From the IMG/VR virus record IMGVR_UViG_3300022745_000006, positions 1-45,332 of that record: DNA of 45,332 nt; one strand, written 5' to 3'. Under the pieces are notes generated by a model. The model made no database searches, was not told the origin of the DNA, and worked only from the letters and a program-made list of their open reading frames with translations. A program made the position numbers and the translations under genes. The DNA is from a virus. Positions 32,076 through 42,851 of the stretch are shown in pieces. Positions within the stretch are counted from its first letter, which is position 1. Each line of letters opens with the position of its first letter.

Positions 32076-34435
32076 AACTTGGCATTGGTGCCGATGAGTC
32101 GGGCCTAGTCGCGGGTATGCAGCGCGCCGAGGCATCGGTGCGCGGCTCGGTCAACGAAATCAAAACGCACATCGAGTCCATCGGATCGACGCTCGGCAAG
32201 ATTTCGGGGATGTTCGCCGCCTTCGCCGGCATGGCGATGGGCGGCGAGGCCATCAAAAAAATCGTCAAGTCGGCCGGCGACTGGCAAACCGAATCGCTCA
32301 AACTCGCCAAGGCCCTCGGTGTGTCGACCGAGCAAGCGAGCGTATGGCAGGTGGCTCTGCACCGCATCGGTGTTGAAAACGACACCGTGCTCAGTGCGTC
32401 GGTCAAGATGTCTAAACAGATATCGACGCACGCCGAGACATTCCGCAAGCTCGGCGTCGACGTGCTCGACTCGGCGGGGAAGCATCGGCCACTCGCCGAT
32501 GTGATGACCGACCTTAATGCCAAGCTAGTCGCGATCCACGACCCCATTGAGCAAAACCGCCTTGGCCTTGCGACCTACGGCAAGGCGTGGGCGGAAGTCA
32601 AGCCGCTGATGAAGCTAACGGCCGAGCAAATGGCCGAGGCCGAAGCGCGCGCCACACAACTCGGGCTCAAGGTCGGGCCCGAGGGCGCGGCCATGGCGAA
32701 AAAGTACAAAGAGTCGATGGCCGACGTGGAACTCGTCGGCAAGTCGCTCACGCTGCAACTCGGCAATGCGCTGCTCCCGGTGATGACGAGCGTGGGCACC
32801 GCGTTCGCTTCGGTTGCTCCGCAGATCGGCGAGGTATTCGGCACGGCGCTCAAGTATGTCGCCGTCGTGGCCATCAATCTCGGCTCGGGGCTCGCCGCCC
32901 TCGGAACGCACATCGGCGGCCTCATGGCCGCAGCGGGTGCGGCGTTGCACGGCGACTTTTCCGGCGCTCGTCAGATTCTCTCGGACATGGACGCCGATAT
33001 CGGGTCCATCGAGAAGAAAGCGCAGGGCATGATTGACAAGTTGTTCGCCAAGCCGGCGGGCGACTCTAAGCCGATGTTTGAGGCGCAGGCCCCTAGCGAG
33101 GACCCGAACAAGTCGCGCATGTCCGAGTGGTCCGAGCGGCTCGCTATTGAGAAAGCGGGCTATCAGGAATCCGAGCGCCTGCGCGGCGAGGATCACCAAT
33201 ACAGTCTGCAAATGGAGTTGCAATTTTGGCAGCGGTTGCGCGCAGCCAAGGGTAACAGCGTCGAGGAGAACAAAGCCCTCGACACGAAGGTCGCCGAAAC
33301 CAAGCTCGCCATCGACCGGCAGACGTGGGCCGAGGAAATTGCGAGCTATAAGGTTCGGGAAGCGGCCTTCAAAAACAACACCGACGCGCGCCTCGCCGTC
33401 GAGCGCGACCTCGCCAACCGCCTCAAGGGGATCTATGGCGAGAACTCGACGCAGTACAAAGAGGCCCTCAAGGCCGTCGTCGACACCGAGCGGCAGGCCG
33501 CGGCCACCGTGCTCGCGCTCAAGGAACAGACTGCCGCCGCGCAGCGCAACGTGGCGCTCGCGGATGTCAACGCCCGGGTGGCCGACGCGCGGCTGCTCGT
33601 TGACCTCGGACGCGCCACCGAAACGCAAATGCTTGAAGTCGAGCGGCAGGCCGAGGCCGAGCGGTTCAACATCAAGCGCGCCGCGCTCGTCGACAAGCTC
33701 ACGCTAGAGGCCAACGACCCCGACCGCGACCCCAAAAAGCTCGCGGCCATCAATGCGGAAATTCTGGCGCTAGAGACAGAGCACGCCGCGAAGCTGTCGG
33801 AACTCGACCGCGCGACAATCAAAGAGCGCCAAAAATACTACACCCAGTTTTACCAAGGGTTGCAGTCGGGATTCGCGAACGTGCTGGCCGGGTTCCTCAA
33901 GGGCACGCAGTCGCTCGGCCAAACCATTCGCGGGCTTTTCTCCGCGATCCTTGACACCGTTTCGCAGATCCTCGCGCAGATTGCCGCCAAGTGGCTCGCA
34001 CAGCGCATTATGAATATGATCGGCGTCAAGTCCGAGGCCGCCAGCAACATCGGCGCACGCGCAGCCGAGGCGGGCGCTGCGGGCGTCGCGTCATTCGCCG
34101 CGGCTCCTTGGCCCATCGACATCGGTGCGCCGGCCTTCGGTGCCGCGATGTCGGCGTCGGCCCTCGCGTTCGGTGCGGGCCTCGCGGCCTCCGGTGGCTT
34201 TGACATCCCGTCCGGCGTCAACCCGCTCGTGCAGACGCACGCGCGAGAAATGATCCTACCCGCACACATTGCCGACCCGCTGCGCGAATCGCTGGCGAGC
34301 GGTGGCGGCATGGGTAGCTCGCCGATTCATGTGCACCTGTCGGCCGTGGACGGCGCGAGCGTGAGGTCGATGGTGAACTCGCACGCGTTCCAAAAGGAAC
34401 TACGCGCGGCCGTGCGCCGTAGTTGGGGGCAGTAA
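32054..34435 (+). CDS. H: Tail tape measure protein (793 aa)
   Basis: Long helical protein that sets tail length. The N-terminus is VKLGIGADESGLVAGMQRAE followed by ASVRGSVNEIKTHIESIG. A hydrophobic stretch (GMFAAFAGMAMGG) follows. A long charged coiled region (about 330-600) and a C-terminal membrane-active segment (LGQTIRGLFSAILDTVSQIL) complete it. At roughly 0.15 nm per residue the tail would be about 120 nm, an estimate from the helix rise. Its TAA overlaps the next ATG by one base. Confidence 0.93.
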   Translation: MAKDDDVKLGIGADESGLVAGMQRAEASVRGSVNEIKTHIESIGSTLGKISGMFAAFAGMAMGGEAIKKIVKSAGDWQTESLKLAKALGVSTEQASVWQVALHRIGVENDTVLSASVKMSKQISTHAETFRKLGVDVLDSAGKHRPLADVMTDLNAKLVAIHDPIEQNRLGLATYGKAWAEVKPLMKLTAEQMAEAEARATQLGLKVGPEGAAMAKKYKESMADVELVGKSLTLQLGNALLPVMTSVGTAFASVAPQIGEVFGTALKYVAVVAINLGSGLAALGTHIGGLMAAAGAALHGDFSGARQILSDMDADIGSIEKKAQGMIDKLFAKPAGDSKPMFEAQAPSEDPNKSRMSEWSERLAIEKAGYQESERLRGEDHQYSLQMELQFWQRLRAAKGNSVEENKALDTKVAETKLAIDRQTWAEEIASYKVREAAFKNNTDARLAVERDLANRLKGIYGENSTQYKEALKAVVDTERQAAATVLALKEQTAAAQRNVALADVNARVADARLLVDLGRATETQMLEVERQAEAERFNIKRAALVDKLTLEANDPDRDPKKLAAINAEILALETEHAAKLSELDRATIKERQKYYTQFYQGLQSGFANVLAGFLKGTQSLGQTIRGLFSAILDTVSQILAQIAAKWLAQRIMNMIGVKSEAASNIGARAAEAGAAGVASFAAAPWPIDIGAPAFGAAMSASALAFGAGLAASGGFDIPSGVNPLVQTHAREMILPAHIADPLRESLASGGGMGSSPIHVHLSAVDGASVRSMVNSHAFQKELRAAVRRSWGQ

Positions 34436-35643
34436 TGTCGAATCTCGTTTTCCCCACCGGCCTCAAGGGAATCCAACTCATCGCCAACCGTTCGCCGCAG
34501 TGGCGCACGCAGGTACAGGAGGCCATGTCCGGAAAGGAGACGGCCATCGCTAAGCGCGCTTACCCGCGCATCGTGTGGGAACTGAGTTACGAAGTGCTGC
34601 GCGACGACCTCGCCACCTCGGACCTCAAAATCATCGTCGGCTTTTTCAACGCCCTCAACGGCGGGTTCGACACGTTCCTTTACACCGACCCGTATTTCAA
34701 CAGCGTCACGGCGCAGAACTTCGGCACGGGCGACGGCGCAACGCGGGCGTTTCAACTTAGCGCGACTTACAAAGACGCGACCGGGCAAGGCTGGCCGGAA
34801 GCCGTTCAAAACTTGAACGGCACTCCCGCGGTGTACGTGACCTTCGGCGACTACCGCGGCACGGCATTGCAATATCAGGGCCCGCGCACAAACTTGGCGT
34901 TGCAGAGTCAGACCCTCGACAACGCGACGTGGACCAAATTTCAAACCACTGTCACGGCGAATGCTGCGACGGCGCCGGACGGAACCGCTACCGCCGACAA
35001 AATCGTCGAAAGCACCGCCAACAATCAGCACTTTATTAGTCAGTCGTGGGGCAAAGCGGCCTCGCCGATCACGTACACCGGCAGCCTCTACCTTCAGCCG
35101 TCCGGGCGCAGCAAGGCGCAGGTTTGGGTGCATGACGGGTCCGGCAACGGCTACGTCGCGATTTTCGACCTTTCCGCCGGCACCGTCACGTTGTCAACGT
35201 TGACCGGGGTGGGTTGGACGGCGGGGTCTGCCGCGATCACGGCCGCAGGTGGCGGGGCGTATCGGTGTTCGGTCACGGTGACGAGCGCCTCGACGACCAC
35301 CCTTGAATTGCGCGTCAACGTTTGCAACGTAGGCACGACGCAGGAAATTTACACGGGTGACGGCACGAGCGGCCTTTACGCTTGGGGCGCGCAAATGGAG
35401 ACGGCTGCCGCTGCCACAACGTACATCCCCACCACGACGGCCACCGTCAGTGTGACCGACTACGCCCTGTCGAGTACCGGCTTGGTGACGTTCACGACGG
35501 CGCCCCCGGCCGCGGCCCCGATCATTTGGACGGGCGCCTTTTACTACCGGTGCCGGTTTCAGGATGACGAGTTAAACCTCACGGAAATCCTGTCCCGATT
35601 CTGGCAACTCAAAAAACTCAAATTCCGCTCGGTGAAGCTGTGA
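34435..35643 (+). CDS. Distal tail protein DUF2460 with inserted putative carbohydrate-binding domain (402 aa)
   Basis: The N-terminus (LKGIQLIANRSPQWRTQVQE, then YPRIVWELSYEVLRDD and FNALNGGFDTFLYTDPY) and the C-terminus (GAFYYRCRFQDDELNLTEIL, then WQLKKLKFRSVKL) belong to DUF2460, the tail-tip hub of lambda-like phages. Between them, about residues 155-345 form a complete beta domain (NLALQSQTLDNATWTKFQTT, GRSKAQVWVHDGSGNGYVA, GLYAWGAQMETAAAATTYIP). Its layout of opening NLALQSQ and closing GAQxExxxxATxYIPT is common to phage carbohydrate-binding-like modules. It resembles an evolved Dit. The ATG at 34435 overlaps the previous TAA. Confidence 0.85.
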   Translation: MSNLVFPTGLKGIQLIANRSPQWRTQVQEAMSGKETAIAKRAYPRIVWELSYEVLRDDLATSDLKIIVGFFNALNGGFDTFLYTDPYFNSVTAQNFGTGDGATRAFQLSATYKDATGQGWPEAVQNLNGTPAVYVTFGDYRGTALQYQGPRTNLALQSQTLDNATWTKFQTTVTANAATAPDGTATADKIVESTANNQHFISQSWGKAASPITYTGSLYLQPSGRSKAQVWVHDGSGNGYVAIFDLSAGTVTLSTLTGVGWTAGSAAITAAGGGAYRCSVTVTSASTTTLELRVNVCNVGTTQEIYTGDGTSGLYAWGAQMETAAAATTYIPTTTATVSVTDYALSSTGLVTFTTAPPAAAPIIWTGAFYYRCRFQDDELNLTEILSRFWQLKKLKFRSVKL

Positions 35644-36629
35644 AAGCCGCAGGACCCAACACGCTCGCCGCGCTCGCGTCGAGTCAGTACGTCAAGGCCG
35701 AACTGTACGACATCGCGCTCACGAGCGGCACGACGATACGGTTGACCGACTACGACCTCCCGCTCACGGTCGGCGCAAACACCTATGGCGCCAACGTCAT
35801 CATCAGTCGCGGGACCGTGTCGCAGAAACTCGGCCTTGAGGTGCAGACGCTCGACTTGACCCTCGCGCCGCAGGCCGACGCGCCGACCCCGCTCACGGTG
35901 GGCGGCGTCGGGCTATTGCAGGCCGTGCGCGCGGGATACCTCGACGGTGCGCGCGTCACCATGTCCAAGGTGTTCATGCAGAAGCCCGCGAGCGGGCTGG
36001 CCGTGAACACAAACAACGAATCCGTGCCGTGGTTCACCGGGCGAGTTTCCGAAGCTACGGCGGGCAGGCAGTCGGCCAAAATTTCGGTCGAGTCGGACCT
36101 TGCGTTGCTCAACGTTCAAATGCCGCGCAACCTATTGCAGTCCGGCTGCACCCACTCCCTATTTGACGCAGGCTGTGGGCTCGTCAAGGCCACGTACACG
36201 ACGGCGGGCGCCGTCACGGCGACCGGGCCGAACTCACAAGCCACGTTCACCACGAACCTCGCCGCCGCGGCGAACTACTACGCCCTCGGCGTTATCACGT
36301 TCACGAGCGGCGCCAACAACGGGCTTTCGGCCACGGTCAAAGCCCACAGCAACACCAACGGCACGCTCACGCTCGTCGCGCCCCTGCTATCGACCCCGGC
36401 CACCGGGGACACGTTTACGATTGTCCCGGGCTGCGACAAGGTGCAGGCAACGTGCTCGTCGAAATTTAGCAACCTCGCGCACTTCGGCGGGTTCCCGTAC
36501 GTGCCGGTGCCTGAAACGATTTACGACGGTGGCACCATCAAGGCCCCGGCGCCGACCATCGCAGGGCAGGGCGTGCCCGGTGGCGGCTCGCGCGTGCCCG
36601 GCAGCCTGCCGGGAGCCTACCGCGCATGA
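35640..36629 (+). CDS. Tail-tip hub protein DUF2163/BR0599-like (329 aa)
   Basis: DUF2163 family: YVKAELYDIALTSGTTIRLT, then LEVQTLDLTLAPQADAPT and VPWFTGRVSEATAGRQSAKI. The four-cysteine centre (Cys in LQSGCTHSLFDAGCGL, then PGCDKVQATCSSKFSN) is equivalent to the iron-sulfur cysteines of lambda gpL. The C-terminus has FGGFPYVPVPETIYDGG. It starts with GTG in a GTGA overlap with the distal tail gene. Confidence 0.87.
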   Translation: MKAAGPNTLAALASSQYVKAELYDIALTSGTTIRLTDYDLPLTVGANTYGANVIISRGTVSQKLGLEVQTLDLTLAPQADAPTPLTVGGVGLLQAVRAGYLDGARVTMSKVFMQKPASGLAVNTNNESVPWFTGRVSEATAGRQSAKISVESDLALLNVQMPRNLLQSGCTHSLFDAGCGLVKATYTTAGAVTATGPNSQATFTTNLAAAANYYALGVITFTSGANNGLSATVKAHSNTNGTLTLVAPLLSTPATGDTFTIVPGCDKVQATCSSKFSNLAHFGGFPYVPVPETIYDGGTIKAPAPTIAGQGVPGGGSRVPGSLPGAYRA

Positions 36630-37054
36630 CGCCCGCACAAGTCGATGCCGTGGTCGCAGAGGCCCGGGAATGGCTGCGCACCCCGTACGTGCACATGGGC
36701 CGCCTCAAGGGCATTGGTGTCGACTGCGGGATGCTGCTTATCGAGGTGTACGGCAACGCCCTCGGCATTGAAAAGCCGAACGTCGGCAACTACACGTCCG
36801 ATTGGTACATGCACCGAGATGAGCCGTTGTACCTCGGGTGGCTTGGCAAGTACGCCGAGCGAATGCCCAAGGGCGTGGCCGGTGAGCCCGGCGATATCGC
36901 CGTATTCAATTTCGGCAGGCACCCGGCGCACGGCGGCATCGTCGTCGAGCCGGGCCTGATGATTCACGCATACAAACCCCACGGCAACGTTGAACTCGCC
37001 GAGGTACGGATGCTCGACCACAGATTAGACAGCTATTGGCGGGTGACGACATGA
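36626..37054 (+). CDS. NlpC/P60 tail peptidase, gpK-like (142 aa)
   Basis: Peptidoglycan endopeptidase on the tail tip. VVAEAREWLRTPYVHMGRL is followed by the catalytic cysteine in GIGVDCGMLLIEVYG and the histidine in FGRHPAHGGIVVEPGLMI. The Asp/His triad residues look complete, so it should be active in crossing the cell wall. Its stop overlaps the tip protein ATG. Confidence 0.9.
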   Translation: MTPAQVDAVVAEAREWLRTPYVHMGRLKGIGVDCGMLLIEVYGNALGIEKPNVGNYTSDWYMHRDEPLYLGWLGKYAERMPKGVAGEPGDIAVFNFGRHPAHGGIVVEPGLMIHAYKPHGNVELAEVRMLDHRLDSYWRVTT

Positions 37055-40000
37055 GTGGCGGCGGCGGTGGTGGACAGTCGACGACCGAAAAGCGCCTCAA
37101 CGCCATCCAGATCAATTCGGCCGCCTATGGCTCGCCCGTGCCGCTCGTGTACGGGCAGACGCGCATCCCGGCCGTGCTCGTGTGGTATGGCGACTTTAAG
37201 GCCACGCCGCACACGCAGTCGCAGGGCGGCAAGGGTGGCGGTGGCGGCTCGTCAACGTCGTACACCTACAGCGCGGCCATCATTATGGCGCTGTGCGAGG
37301 GTCCGATTGCGAGCGTGGTGTCGGTATTCATCGACAAGGGCACCGACGCGAGCATCGCCAACCAGAACCTAACGCTATTCACGGGCGCCATTGCGCAATC
37401 GACTTGGTCGTACATGACGACCAACCACTCGGCGCAGGCCATCGGCTACTCGGGCACCGCGTACGTGTGTTCGGGCGGCTGGCAAATGGGGAACAGTGCC
37501 GCGCTTCAAAACATGACGTTTGAAGTGTCCGCGCTGTACAACGGCACCGCGGGCGCGACGCCCACCAATATCCTCGTCGACTACCTCACGCACGCGACGC
37601 ACGGCGCGAGCTTCCCCTACCTTGACACGTACTGGCAGGGTGCGAGCGCGGACTCGTTCGCGACGTACTGCACCGCGCTCGGCATCAAGCTGTCGCCGGC
37701 CGAATTGACGCAGAGAGCCGCGGCCGATTTCGTGACCGAAATTTTGCGGATCACCAACAGCGCGGCCGTGTGGTCGGCCGGCTTGCTGCACATCATCCCG
37801 TACGGCGACACGTCCATCACGGCCAACAGCGTCACGTACACGCCAACGAACGGCAACGGCGCGAGCATAAACACGCCCATTTACACGTTCACCGATGATG
37901 ACTATTTGGCCGACGACGATGAGCCGGTAAAAGTTTCCCGCAAGCCCGCATCGGACACGTTCAACAAGGTCCGCATCGAGTACCTCGACAGCGCAAACCA
38001 GTACAACGTGGCCATTGCCGAGGCCAGTGACGCGCAGAACATCGCGCTATACGGCGAGCGTGTCGCGCCGACGGAATCCTTTCACAGCATCACGTCGACG
38101 ACCGTGGCGCGTCTGGTAGCGCAGCTACTTTTGCAGCGCGGCCTTTACTACCGCAACCAATACACTTTCAAGGTTCGCGCCGACTATTCGCTGCTTGAGC
38201 CCGGCGACGTGGTCGCGCTGTACGAAAGCGCGCTTGGCCTGTCCAATGCGTTGTGCCGCGTCACCGAAGTACGCGACACGGCAGACGACGAGCTTGAGCT
38301 TGTGGTCGAGGAGCTGCCCCTCGGACCCGGCCACGCGCCGCAATACAGTTGGGATTCTGCCGCGGGATACGCGGCCAACACGCTCGCGAGCCCCGGCAGC
38401 GTCTCGGCCCCTGTCATGTTCGTTATGCCGCCCGCGCTCGTGTCGGGTTCGGGCGGCTATCAGGTTGGCGTGGCCGTGGGCGGCACGTCCGCACTGTGGG
38501 GCGGCTGCGACGTTTACATGTCGACCGACAATGTGACGTACGTGCAGGTCGGCTCCATGACATCGGGCGGCTCGCGCTACGGCACGCTGCGCTCGACGTT
38601 CGCATCGAACTCGGCCGACCCCGACACCACAAGCTCGCTGCAACTCCAACTCGTCAACACGAGTCAGACCATGTCGGCCGGGTCGCAGGCCGACGTGGAC
38701 ACGCTCAACACGCTCGTGTACGTCGACGGGGAAATCGTCGCTTATCGCGACTGCACCCTCGCCGGCGCCGGCCAATACAACCTCGGCTATTTCCACCGCG
38801 GCCAGTACGGGTCAACGATTGCCGCGCACTCGGCCGGCACGAATTGGGCGCGCATCGACGCGGGCCTTTTCCGCGTGCCGCTCGATCCGGGCCTCGCCGG
38901 CACGACGATCTATTTTAAGTTTGTCTCGTTCAACATCTACGGCAAGGCATACGAATCCCTCGCGAGCGTGACGGCCTACAGCAAGGCCCTTCCCGCGGCC
39001 ACGACCTCGACGGCCGGCACGCATCAGTTTGTGCCGCGCACCTATTGCGTCGTCAATGGCTCGACGATTTCCAAGGCTGCGGGCAGCACGTTGGCGTGGG
39101 ATTCGGATTGCTACTCGACCGACAGCTACAGTGCCGGGTGCACGCTTTCGTTTAGGGCGGGGCAGACCACGGCCGACGTGGCCGTTGGACTCAGCACCAA
39201 CCCGACGGCAAGTCAGAGCATATCGGGAATTGATTTTGCGATTTACATGCAGCCGGGCGGCGCTCTCAACATCTATGAAAGCAATGCCAACGTCGGCGCA
39301 TTCGGAACCTACTCGACCAACGACGCCTTTTCGATCCATTACGACGGCAACGCCGTCACGTACTTTAAGAATGGCACGCTACTGCGCAGTGTGGTCGCGC
39401 CCGGTAAGACGCTGTACATGGACAGCAGCATTTACACGCGCGGCGCGAGCGTCGTGGGCGTCACGTTCACAGGCACGGTTTCGGTTAGCAAAGCGCCGAT
39501 TAATTTCCTGAATTCACGCGCGTGGGTGCTCGGTGCGATGTCGAGCAACCTCGGCAACTACGCGCCGAATGGCCCCATCGGACTCAACACTATCGTGCTC
39601 GGGGGCACCGGCTCCGAACCGCTCGGCCCCTACGGCACATCCGAACCGCTATGGAAAGGCGCAGGCAATGCGACCAACAACGCCGACGGCGGATGGGTGA
39701 ATGGCGACACGGGTGACATTCAAGGGCTCGACCCGACCAAAACCTACCGGTCGCTCGTGTGGATGCGTTACAGCGCCACGGGTGCGGTGTCGGGAAACCT
39801 TTATCACGGGTGCAGCCAGTCGGCGACCAACGACCTTTCGGGGGCATTCAACGGCAACCCGTATTTTAATTCGTTGGGCTTAGGCGCCCTCGTTCCAAAT
39901 CGTTGGTACTTGAGTGTTGGCATTATCCACGGCTCCGGGTACTCGGGCAGCGGCACCAACGTGTCCGGCATTTACGACCCGACCACGGGCGCCAAGGTCA

Positions 40001-42546
40001 ACGTCGGCGTCGAGTTCAAACAGATACCGGGAAAGACATATCAGACCCATCGCGCGTTTCTTTACTACACGACGACCGCGGGCGTTGTGCTGTACCTCGC
40101 GCGCCCGGCTTTCGAGGAGGTGAACGGGCAGGAAAAGACAATCCAACAGCTATTGTCGCCGGCCAACCTCGACGCAATACCGGACGGCACGACCTACGGC
40201 CGCCCGCTGCTCGGTCGGTTGAATGCAGGCCGACCGCTCATCGACTTTAGTGAGTCGATCCACAGTAACAAGGGCGCGTTCGCTACTGTCAACCAAGTCA
40301 CGACGGCGAACTCGTCGACTCTGGTAGCAGCCGCAGCAATAAACAATGCGCACCTAATAGTTGCGCGGCAGGGCGCTCCGCTCAATGACGACCCCGGCTG
40401 TCAAGATCAAAGTGCGTGGTCGGGCTGGTCGAGCAACCCGCCCGCGACCGTCACAGCGATCACGGACGGCACCATGGGCAATTCGTGCCTCCGCACTGGC
40501 GGGGGTGTGAATAGCCGCAGCATCAACGCGAAGCTCATTCCCGCGGACCCGAATAAGAAATATCGAATTTCGGCGTGGGTGCGTAGCAATGGGGCCGATG
40601 GGCGCCTTTATCTACGCACCGTTGTCTACCCGCCGACCGCTACCTCGACGAGTGGCGGCGCTGAGGTGGCATTGGGAATTGAGGCGGTAACAGTGCCGTC
40701 GACGTGGACGCACTACCAAGCTGTATTTTCTGTGTCGTCGAGTTACGCGTTTGTATCGCCGCAAATCCTGTTGAATTGGGGCGGCAGCGTCGGGAGCATG
40801 GACGCGACCGACATTAGAATCGAGGAGTCGGTGCCTCTCGATTCACTCGTGTCCGACGGCCCAACTTACTCGCGCACGCTCGGCACTCGCGTAAACGCGG
40901 GCCGTCCGCTCATCGACTTTAGTGAGTCGATCCACACCAACAAAAACCTCGACAACGTTGCCGACGGAACTGCCGGCCGCGTCGCGCGCACCAATTACAC
41001 CATCACCCTCAGCAGCGGCGTGCCGCAGTGGGTGAACCTCGGAACGTTGACGTTTGCCAATTGGGGCACGGCTTTCTCGTTCACGATCCATGGCGGTTCG
41101 CAGTATTCGTCAGGACAGAACACGCCCGCCACAACGACCATCACGGTGCGATGTGGCGACGGTACGGGTGCACCGAACCTGTCGGGCGTTTTCTTCACCG
41201 AGACGGCGAGCGGCGGCGCGTCGGTCTACGGGGTCAAGCTCGTCGCGCACGGCGGCTCCACGAGCGCCGGAAATACGGCGTGGGACTTGCTCGTCTATCT
41301 CAACGTTTACAATTGCCCGACGCTCGATGTGACTGCGCCGGTTAATGGCACGTTTGTGTACTCGGGCGCGAACACATCGGACCCGGGCGCCGCGTCCACC
41401 ACGGTCGTGGTCGCAAATGGTGGCCGAGTCTTTATCCCGTCCAACGGGGCCGGTGCCGATGCGCTTGTCGACGGCACGACCTACGCGCGCACGCTCGCTT
41501 CACGAGTCAATGCCGGTCGCCCCGTGCTCGATTTTAGCGAGGCGATCCACGCCAACCAGAACGTCGACAACGTCGCGGATGGTTCGACGTACAAGCGGGT
41601 GCTCGGCACTCGCATCAATGCCGGTCGGCCGACCATCGACTTTAGTGAGGCGATCCACACCAACCAGAACGTCGACAACATCGCGGACGGTTCGACGTAC
41701 GCGCGTGTGCTCGGCACGGCACTCACGAGTGGCTCGGTGGACCCGACCAAGGCGGGTGTACTGGCCAAGGGCTCGCTACCCCCGACCATCCCGGCGCAGT
41801 CGTTCACGTACGCGAGCACCACGACGACCGTGGCGATTAGCTGGCCGGCGATTACGGTGTACCGCGCCGACGGCACGACCATCACGATTTCATCTGGCAG
41901 CCAGTCGATATCGAGTCTTTCAGTGGGCACGAGCTACAAGGTATATCCCTACATGGCCGACTCGGGCGGCAGTAGCGGCACGGTTTCGTGGCCGACGGGC
42001 GGCACCGGCAGCCCTGCTATTGCGCAGCCGTTTGCGGGTAGCGCCACGGCAGCGGCGACGATGTACGCCCGCGGCAATATCCCGCTGAACTCTTTCATCA
42101 TCACGACGACGACATCGGGAACGGGCAGCGGTGGCGGGGGTGGAGGCGGGTGCCCTCACCCTGACACGCTCGTCGAACTCGCCGACGGCGTCATCACTCC
42201 CGCGGGCGAACTTCGCATTGGCGACATGCTCCCGACACCGTCGGGCCCGCAGCCCATTACGGCCCTGAGTCGGTGGGTGATGAGCCGGTGGGTGGTGGTC
42301 GAGGTCGACCGGGCCGGCGTGGTTATCGTGAGCCCCGATCACGCGTTCTATTCAGTGCGCGGCGACCTCGTGCGAGCCGACGAGTTGCGCCTCGGGGAAT
42401 TGCTGCGCACCGACGGCAACCATGCCGAAGTGACTGGCCTATTTCTGCGCAACGATCCGGCGAGCGTCGTCTCGCTGGAACTGCCGGAACCTCATTTGTA
42501 CTACCTCGGCCCGAAGCGGCTGCTCTCACACAATCCGAAGCCATGA
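37051..42546 (+). CDS. J: Central tail-tip protein, gpJ-like, with C-terminal Hint domain (1831 aa)
   Basis: Host-recognition tip protein. The N-terminal gpJ-like region begins INSAAYGSPVPLVYGQTRIP and AAIIMALCEGPIASVVSVFI. GRVAPTESFHSI-like and ALYESALGLSNALCRVTEVR segments form the phage-tail hub, followed by fibronectin-like and beta-rich repeats. Between about 1045 and 1570 are five imperfect 36-residue repeats (ADGxTYxRxLGxRxNAGRPx, IDFSExIHxNQNVDN). A glycine linker (SGGGGGGG) leads to residues 1701-1828, a Hint (intein-like) domain with Cys1701 and the terminal SHN. It is followed only by PKP. The ATG at 37051 overlaps the previous stop. A TTG at 37036 in frame was not used. Confidence 0.9.
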   Translation: MSGGGGGGQSTTEKRLNAIQINSAAYGSPVPLVYGQTRIPAVLVWYGDFKATPHTQSQGGKGGGGGSSTSYTYSAAIIMALCEGPIASVVSVFIDKGTDASIANQNLTLFTGAIAQSTWSYMTTNHSAQAIGYSGTAYVCSGGWQMGNSAALQNMTFEVSALYNGTAGATPTNILVDYLTHATHGASFPYLDTYWQGASADSFATYCTALGIKLSPAELTQRAAADFVTEILRITNSAAVWSAGLLHIIPYGDTSITANSVTYTPTNGNGASINTPIYTFTDDDYLADDDEPVKVSRKPASDTFNKVRIEYLDSANQYNVAIAEASDAQNIALYGERVAPTESFHSITSTTVARLVAQLLLQRGLYYRNQYTFKVRADYSLLEPGDVVALYESALGLSNALCRVTEVRDTADDELELVVEELPLGPGHAPQYSWDSAAGYAANTLASPGSVSAPVMFVMPPALVSGSGGYQVGVAVGGTSALWGGCDVYMSTDNVTYVQVGSMTSGGSRYGTLRSTFASNSADPDTTSSLQLQLVNTSQTMSAGSQADVDTLNTLVYVDGEIVAYRDCTLAGAGQYNLGYFHRGQYGSTIAAHSAGTNWARIDAGLFRVPLDPGLAGTTIYFKFVSFNIYGKAYESLASVTAYSKALPAATTSTAGTHQFVPRTYCVVNGSTISKAAGSTLAWDSDCYSTDSYSAGCTLSFRAGQTTADVAVGLSTNPTASQSISGIDFAIYMQPGGALNIYESNANVGAFGTYSTNDAFSIHYDGNAVTYFKNGTLLRSVVAPGKTLYMDSSIYTRGASVVGVTFTGTVSVSKAPINFLNSRAWVLGAMSSNLGNYAPNGPIGLNTIVLGGTGSEPLGPYGTSEPLWKGAGNATNNADGGWVNGDTGDIQGLDPTKTYRSLVWMRYSATGAVSGNLYHGCSQSATNDLSGAFNGNPYFNSLGLGALVPNRWYLSVGIIHGSGYSGSGTNVSGIYDPTTGAKVNVGVEFKQIPGKTYQTHRAFLYYTTTAGVVLYLARPAFEEVNGQEKTIQQLLSPANLDAIPDGTTYGRPLLGRLNAGRPLIDFSESIHSNKGAFATVNQVTTANSSTLVAAAAINNAHLIVARQGAPLNDDPGCQDQSAWSGWSSNPPATVTAITDGTMGNSCLRTGGGVNSRSINAKLIPADPNKKYRISAWVRSNGADGRLYLRTVVYPPTATSTSGGAEVALGIEAVTVPSTWTHYQAVFSVSSSYAFVSPQILLNWGGSVGSMDATDIRIEESVPLDSLVSDGPTYSRTLGTRVNAGRPLIDFSESIHTNKNLDNVADGTAGRVARTNYTITLSSGVPQWVNLGTLTFANWGTAFSFTIHGGSQYSSGQNTPATTTITVRCGDGTGAPNLSGVFFTETASGGASVYGVKLVAHGGSTSAGNTAWDLLVYLNVYNCPTLDVTAPVNGTFVYSGANTSDPGAASTTVVVANGGRVFIPSNGAGADALVDGTTYARTLASRVNAGRPVLDFSEAIHANQNVDNVADGSTYKRVLGTRINAGRPTIDFSEAIHTNQNVDNIADGSTYARVLGTALTSGSVDPTKAGVLAKGSLPPTIPAQSFTYASTTTTVAISWPAITVYRADGTTITISSGSQSISSLSVGTSYKVYPYMADSGGSSGTVSWPTGGTGSPAIAQPFAGSATAAATMYARGNIPLNSFIITTTTSGTGSGGGGGGGCPHPDTLVELADGVITPAGELRIGDMLPTPSGPQPITALSRWVMSRWVVVEVDRAGVVIVSPDHAFYSVRGDLVRADELRLGELLRTDGNHAEVTGLFLRNDPASVVSLELPEPHLYYLGPKRLLSHNPKP
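41470..41741 (+). repeat. Tandem 108-bp repeat in the tip gene (two full units and part of a third)
   Basis: Units start at 41470, 41578 and 41686 and encode DGTTYARTLASRVNAGRPVL and its continuation. The first two are complete (36 codons each) and the third is partial. Degenerate single copies also lie near 40189 and 40855. The block VNAGRPxIDFSExIH is strongly conserved, so function or recent exchange keeps it uniform. Confidence 0.85.
42151..42534 (+). other. Hint (intein-like) domain of the tip protein
   Basis: The 128 codons encode CPHPDTLVELADG (block A, Cys1701), GELRIGDMLPTPSGPQPITA and VVIVSPDHAFYSVRGDL (block B, His). LELPEPHLYYLGPKRLLSHN forms blocks F/G with the terminal His-Asn. 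Its length (about 130 residues, no homing nuclease) is that of bacterial intein-like domains. The residue after Asn is Pro, not Cys/Ser/Thr, so full splicing is unlikely. N- or C-terminal cleavage is more plausible. Confidence 0.83.
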
Positions 42547-42851
42547 AACGCTATTACATCGTGCCGGACGCTCACATGCCGAGTGGCGAGTTGAACGTCG
42601 GCCACTGGCACGGCATCGACCTCGGCAGCCACGGCCCCGCGGGAGCGGGGCACCATGTTGTCGTGTTGCTTGACGACCACGTCGAGCCGCCCGACACATG
42701 GGTGCCACTGCCTCACCTCTATGACGCGCGCACGACGATGGGCAAGCACGCACACCGCGGCAAGCTCACCGACGTGGGAGTCACCGACGGCCACACCGGG
42801 TACGACGTGGCCAATGCCCTCCACAAAATCCACCCCATGTTTAGGCCATAA
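42543..42851 (+). CDS. Hypothetical protein downstream of the Hint domain (102 aa)
   Basis: Histidine-rich small protein: MKRYYIVPDAHMPSGELNVG, then HWHGIDLGSHGPAGAGHHVV, then GKHAHRGKLTDVGVTDGHTG. It has no membrane segment or known domain, and the many histidines suggest metal binding. Its ATG overlaps the tip protein stop (ATGA), so the two are translated together, and a role at the tail tip is likely. It cannot be assigned further. Confidence 0.65.
   Translation: MKRYYIVPDAHMPSGELNVGHWHGIDLGSHGPAGAGHHVVVLLDDHVEPPDTWVPLPHLYDARTTMGKHAHRGKLTDVGVTDGHTGYDVANALHKIHPMFRP

Follow-up and report, generated by a model that had tools for sequence, protein, structure and literature searches.

Does the protein at the tip of a phage tail end in a domain that removes itself? 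The question arose at the end of the tail-tip gene of an uncultured phage whose whole record of 45,332 bases (the window) was analyzed, where a first-pass annotation had placed a minimal Hint (intein-like) domain. Given a gene start at the ATG at 37051, its coordinates and residue numbers proved exact (Cys1701 at 42151, Asn1828 ending at 42534). The features it had named, namely Cys1701, SPDH, the terminal SHN, a glycine linker and only PKP behind, are all present in the sequence.

The carrier gene (37051..42546, + strand) codes for 1831 residues from this ATG and closes with TGA at 42544-42546; its longest open reading frame starts at a TTG at 37036. The protein matches Phage-tail_3 (1.2e-32) and Rcc01698_C (1.8e-12) in Pfam, GTA_megatron (3.8e-44) in NCBIfam and the tail protein family 1101 in PHROG (2.9e-97). 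Its N-terminal 650 residues, by profile match, and the gene order (DUF2460, DUF2163-type, NlpC/P60) identify it as a tip protein of the GTA-megatron/Rcc01698 type. The tail operon is arranged as in gene-transfer-agent-like siphophages, with a DUF2460 protein (34423-35643), a tail assembly protein (35640-36629, PHROG 778) and an NlpC/P60-like protein (36626-37054) directly upstream of the tip gene, the ATG of which overlaps the NlpC/P60 stop codon (ATGA). The DUF2460 protein has an additional C-terminal half (residues 140-355) that resembles parts of other phages' tail proteins. The tip protein itself contains four copies of the repeat DGxxYxRxLxxRxNAGRPxxDFSExIH (40183-41720; residues 1050-1560 when counted from the TTG) and a CBM_4_9-like carbohydrate-binding domain (40414-40743; Pfam, E 3e-6). 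The region adjoining the linker (41761..42114, + strand) is beta-rich and presumably stalk-like; it has no match above cut-off in Pfam, and segments that resemble it by eye also lie upstream of the Hint domain in L075, L059, L031 and other carriers.

The glycine-rich linker SGTGSGGGGGGG (42115..42150, + strand) ends at Gly1700 (position -1) and is followed by the last 131 residues of the protein, CPHPDTLV...SPDH...LLSHN-PKP. The domain spans 128 residues from Cys1701 to Asn1828 (42151..42534, + strand). On the same strand lie the codons for the N-terminal nucleophile Cys1701 (42151..42153), the block-B motif Ser-Pro-Asp-His (SxxH, 42331..42342), the block-G end Ser-His-Asn (42526..42534) and the C-terminal tail Pro-Lys-Pro (+1 to +3, 42535..42543), with the stop codon next. 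Among PDB sequences, phmmer returned the BIL domain of Clostridium thermocellum (2lwy, E=0.0012) as the best match. The domain reached no curated cut-off in Pfam or NCBIfam, with PT-HINT (PF07591) 0.4 bits short at 27.3 bits (5e-6, cut-off 27.7), and a search of the source record with PF13403 gave no match, the domain lying too far from that model. An AlphaFold2 model of the window-type domain, built on a six-sequence alignment (pLDDT 84.7), has the horseshoe-shaped all-beta Hint fold. The top Foldseek matches of this model are all Hint structures of the hedgehog/intein kind (E 4e-7 and up), including BIL2, class 3 DnaB inteins, gp41-1, hedgehog (1at0) and 2lwy. Given these profile, PDB and fold matches, we can eliminate the possibility of a chance set of motifs. 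By its predicted structure the C-terminal domain of the tip is a Hint domain and, in agreement with the first-pass annotation, a catalytically complete-looking minimal one at the very end of the protein. The N-terminal Cys, the C-terminal His1827-Asn1828 pair and a +1 residue (Pro) that is not Cys, Ser or Thr are the features of an A-type BIL domain. We can also exclude an ordinary class 1 intein: the +1 position is Pro, only three residues lie behind the domain, and there is no ligatable C-extein.

A search for the module in other phage tip proteins, which the first-pass annotation had proposed, was carried out by way of the tip N-terminus (viral and bacterial contigs) and then by alignments of the Hint subtypes. 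It yielded 43 such modules, 33 of them below 70% identity (median identity 23%). Their carriers are tips of the GTA type, tips of the TipJ type and virion proteins of jumbo phages. Among closed tip proteins related by their N-terminus, 14 of 116 have the Hint ending. The tip protein of L075, another phage contig, terminates in a 45%-identical domain. Besides the window and L075, the Hint-ended GTA-type tips outside the CS subtype described below are L115, L107/L025/L132/L142 (Sphingomonas-type) and L059; those of this second subtype are L008, L089, L114, L152, L031 (Frateuria) and L032. The module also occurs on TipJ-type tips (L149, L157, L173-L176; a label given by sequence inspection, since Pfam and other profiles matched weakly), on virion proteins of large phages (L150, L158), and in the cultured phages XacN1 (ORF231), LucasX (LUCX_306; both Xanthomonas phages), PhiXhv-12 and DLP6. 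These proteins are either labeled hypothetical or have no annotation. Used as a tblastn query, the window Hint found nothing in cultured phages, and its peptide pattern found nothing in viral contigs; the A3 modules varied too much to be scanned by pattern. Most cultured relatives of the tip are devoid of the module, which is therefore non-essential to such tails.

Several matches were set aside. Those to an L115-type query were for the most part genuine inteins, located in terminases and portal proteins of phages, and matches to an A5 query in gammaproteobacterial genomes were DnaB-like inteins. A further intein lies within a helicase-like gene of L159 (minus strand, near the contig end), a phage that also has a Hint-ended tip.

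The 33 modules below 70% identity all start with Cys1 and all end with Asn, and 32 have the penultimate His, which Ser replaces in L131 (SN). Part of the set had first been picked by a filter for HN near the end, so that HN conservation is inflated for that part; modules found by tblastn or profile alone kept HN in all cases but L131. In a set of 28 modules, conservation peaks at Cys1, at the last Asn, at the His before it and at structural Gly/Ala positions. No module without Cys1 or Asn was seen among profile matches in 16,016 open reading frames. A Cys, Ser or Thr at +1 occurs once in 33 (Thr), while Lys occupies +2 in 21 of 33 modules (assumed background for Lys: 6%). The tail usually counts 3-11 residues and has at most 12 in 29 of the 33 modules, which makes the terminal place the rule rather than a truncation. 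Gly makes up 51% of the 12 residues preceding Cys1, compared to 8% within the domains. Block B is SxxH/TxxH-like in the subtype of the window (His subtype) and C-S-x-x-A-P, without His, in the second (CS) subtype, so that thioester formation may differ among members. The AlphaFold2 model of the second subtype (pLDDT 94) matches intein, BIL and hedgehog Hint structures. Judged by dN/dS values of 0.12-0.34 (12 domain pairs, those computable), the Hint domain is under purifying selection. The module is C-terminal on tips or virion proteins except in the two proteins with the longest tails, L163 and L171. In L163 (3868-6807) the Hint domain is internal to a phage protein, with Lys at +1 and a 121-residue C-terminal segment behind it. 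In L171 (5140-7000) it is followed by a proline-/glycine-rich stretch and then, in another frame, by an S74 chaperone segment (frameshift or sequencing error).

On the tree of tip proteins, Hint presence changes at least five times on well-supported branches, and the Hint-ended L075 is sister to L012, which has no Hint. From this distribution, the module is gained and lost as a unit. Directly behind the tip gene of the window lies a candidate linked gene (42543..42851, + strand) for 102 amino acids, whose ATG overlaps the tip-gene stop (ATGA). A homologue follows the Hint-ended tip of L075 directly (E 8e-18) and possibly that of L059; for the product in the window, Pfam and PHROG gave no match above cut-off and no toxin or immunity match. 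The CS subtype has a linked gene of its own (140-170 aa, distinct from the 102-aa gene of the window and L075), which was the same downstream gene in 6 of 6 cases and occurs with both GTA-type and TipJ-type tips. Members of this family, for which Pfam and PHROG again gave nothing above cut-off, stand directly behind the Hint gene in L008, L089, L114, L031, L032, L149, L151, L152, L157 and L179, and not behind the large-phage members L150 and L158; among the loci analyzed, every member sits behind a Hint module of the second subtype. The family occurs at 0 of 113 Hint-less tip loci, once the two apparent exceptions in the Fisher table are recognized, by elimination, as duplicates of CS-type Hint loci (duplicate records are L148, L154 and L155, equal to L031, L114 and L089). 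The module thus travels with a candidate partner gene. This linkage and the conserved Lys-containing tail had been overlooked in the first-pass annotation.

How may this domain work? The conserved residues suggest that the tip protein probably ends in an A-type-BIL-like self-processing Hint domain, which is kept by selection and removes itself from a polyglycine stalk. By analogy to A-type BIL chemistry (PMC4031507; PMC7664689), Cys1701, aided by the histidine of SPDH, would convert the Gly1700-Cys1701 bond, where the flexible polyglycine stalk ends, to a thioester. His1827 and Asn1828 would then cut the bond to the tail through Asn cyclization. Water could resolve the thioester and leave Gly1700 as the last stalk residue; attack by the amine set free on Pro-Lys-Pro would give a spliced stalk ...GGGPKP; and attack by an amine or thiol from elsewhere would result in ligation. 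In each event the Hint domain would cap the C-terminus of the host-contacting protein for a time. That Asn and a short Lys tail are kept with almost nothing behind them argues that C-terminal chemistry would be in use, beyond a hedgehog-like N-terminal cleavage. If the domain is active, we give cleavage alone about even odds, ligation to another molecule somewhat less than one chance in three, and splicing to the short tail about one in five. Pro at +1 may slow Asn cyclization, which counts against the self-processing reading of the window domain. The Ser of L131, the His-less block B of the CS subtype and the lack of the module in most cultured relatives of the tip weigh on the same side. The initial judgment, drawn from this Pro, that splicing is improbable goes too far: A-type BIL domains by definition have no nucleophile at +1, and yet splicing can occur in them, with cleavage dominant (PMC4031507).

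Other functions have to be weighed against self-removal. A self-cleaving C-terminal chaperone or cap, which would aid folding or trimerization of the stalk before being shed like an S74 chaperone, is conceivable by analogy, if doubtful: C-terminal placement on receptor-end proteins is common to Hint and S74, sporadic gain and loss is what one would expect of a terminal module that can be exchanged, and in L171 the S74 segment sits behind the Hint domain, in the other frame. S74 differs from Hint in fold and chemistry, however, and this idea leaves the conserved Lys-containing tail behind Asn unexplained. Alternatively, the Hint domain could be a one-shot ligase that passes the polyglycine thioester to an amine or thiol of a virion partner or of the host surface, comparable to the transfer of hedgehog to cholesterol. 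The acyl end would be an exposed, flexible Gly stretch. The gene linked to the CS subtype across two tip architectures and the one shared by the window and L075 would be candidate acceptors or helpers. L149 (926-6408), L150 (3161-6426) and L158 (3197-6423) each contain two adjoining virion-protein genes that both end in a second-subtype Hint, which also speaks for ligation. Yet the linked genes have no known domain (Pfam, PHROG), and the terminal Asn is invariant in the modules, whereas hedgehog-type ligases are devoid of it; we consider ligation as the main function unlikely. The more far-reaching version, in which a widespread phage module would join the tip through a covalent bond to a partner (the linked-gene product, another tail protein or the host surface) and thereby seal host contact or particle maturation, appears unlikely as well.

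A catalytically silent Hint domain used for binding or capping seems improbable. Many Hint folds tolerate loss of activity and the second subtype has no block-B His, but at a median identity of 23% the modules still keep the terminal Cys, His and Asn, and the profile matches included no Cys1- or Asn-less module. The last reading to be discussed, the remnant of a pretoxin, has very little probability. HINT domains release C-terminal toxins in polymorphic toxin systems (PMC3482391), and PT-HINT is the best Pfam match to the window domain, so the module might be a PT-HINT whose toxin has since been lost. Against this stand the terminal position of 29 of 33 modules and the bacterial pretoxin-type Hints from the same searches (L187, L189), which have long C-terminal cargo. 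In the window there is no cargo, the stop codon follows three residues past Asn, and neither a toxin nor an immunity protein matches the downstream gene; we therefore disfavor this origin. Self-removal from the polyglycine stalk remains the reading we favor.

In phages, Hint domains have been described as inteins of enzymes, terminases among them; in bacteria, Hints process pretoxins. The Hint superfamily and the chemistry of A-type BIL domains are known. For the constant terminal position on virion proteins of the receptor end, the short tail with Lys, the second subtype and the linked genes, we found no description in open-licence papers. The first-pass annotation had regarded the module as unusual and as the strongest candidate for a little-described system; our literature searches, which covered open-licence papers, returned no published description on phage tails, but the module recurs on at least three kinds of virion proteins. 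The recurrence of a Hint ending on receptor-end proteins of several unrelated phage groups suggests an undescribed trimming or covalent modification of the host-facing part of the particle. If this is true, intein chemistry would serve some phages to trim their host-contact apparatus or to modify it covalently, and these minimal Hint domains would be new tools for protein ligation with a natural polyglycine acyl donor. Since cultured phages (XacN1, LucasX, PhiXhv-12, DLP6) have the module, the question is directly testable, partly on existing virion proteomics.

Comparison to known systems helps to place the module. Class 1 and class 3 inteins of phages (gp41-1, MchDnaB1, terminase inteins) share its fold and terminal residues, whereas the tail module has no +1 Cys, Ser or Thr apart from the single Thr, no C-extein of functional size, and no place in a conserved enzyme site. 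PT-HINT domains of polymorphic toxins (PF07591) have weak profile similarity and a comparable location, towards the C-terminus of a long surface protein; unlike them, the window module has no toxin cargo behind it and no recognized immunity gene. The Hog domain of hedgehog is likewise a C-terminal Hint and a structural match (1at0), which parallels the predicted release of an N-terminal partner through a Cys thioester. In contrast to Hog, the tail module keeps the terminal Asn and has no sterol-recognition region, since nothing follows. The endosialidase S74 chaperone is shed from many tail fibers. Such chaperones of phage tail spikes and fibers would resemble the Hint ending, by functional analogy, as C-terminal self-removing modules on receptor-end proteins; in sequence, fold and chemistry the two are unrelated. 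The A-type BIL domain of C. thermocellum (2lwy) shares with the phage domain the Hint fold, Cys1, the C-terminal His-Asn, a non-nucleophilic +1 residue and a size of about 130 residues. The phage domain differs in that it closes a virion protein, with a polyglycine linker before it and a Lys-containing tail of only a few residues behind.
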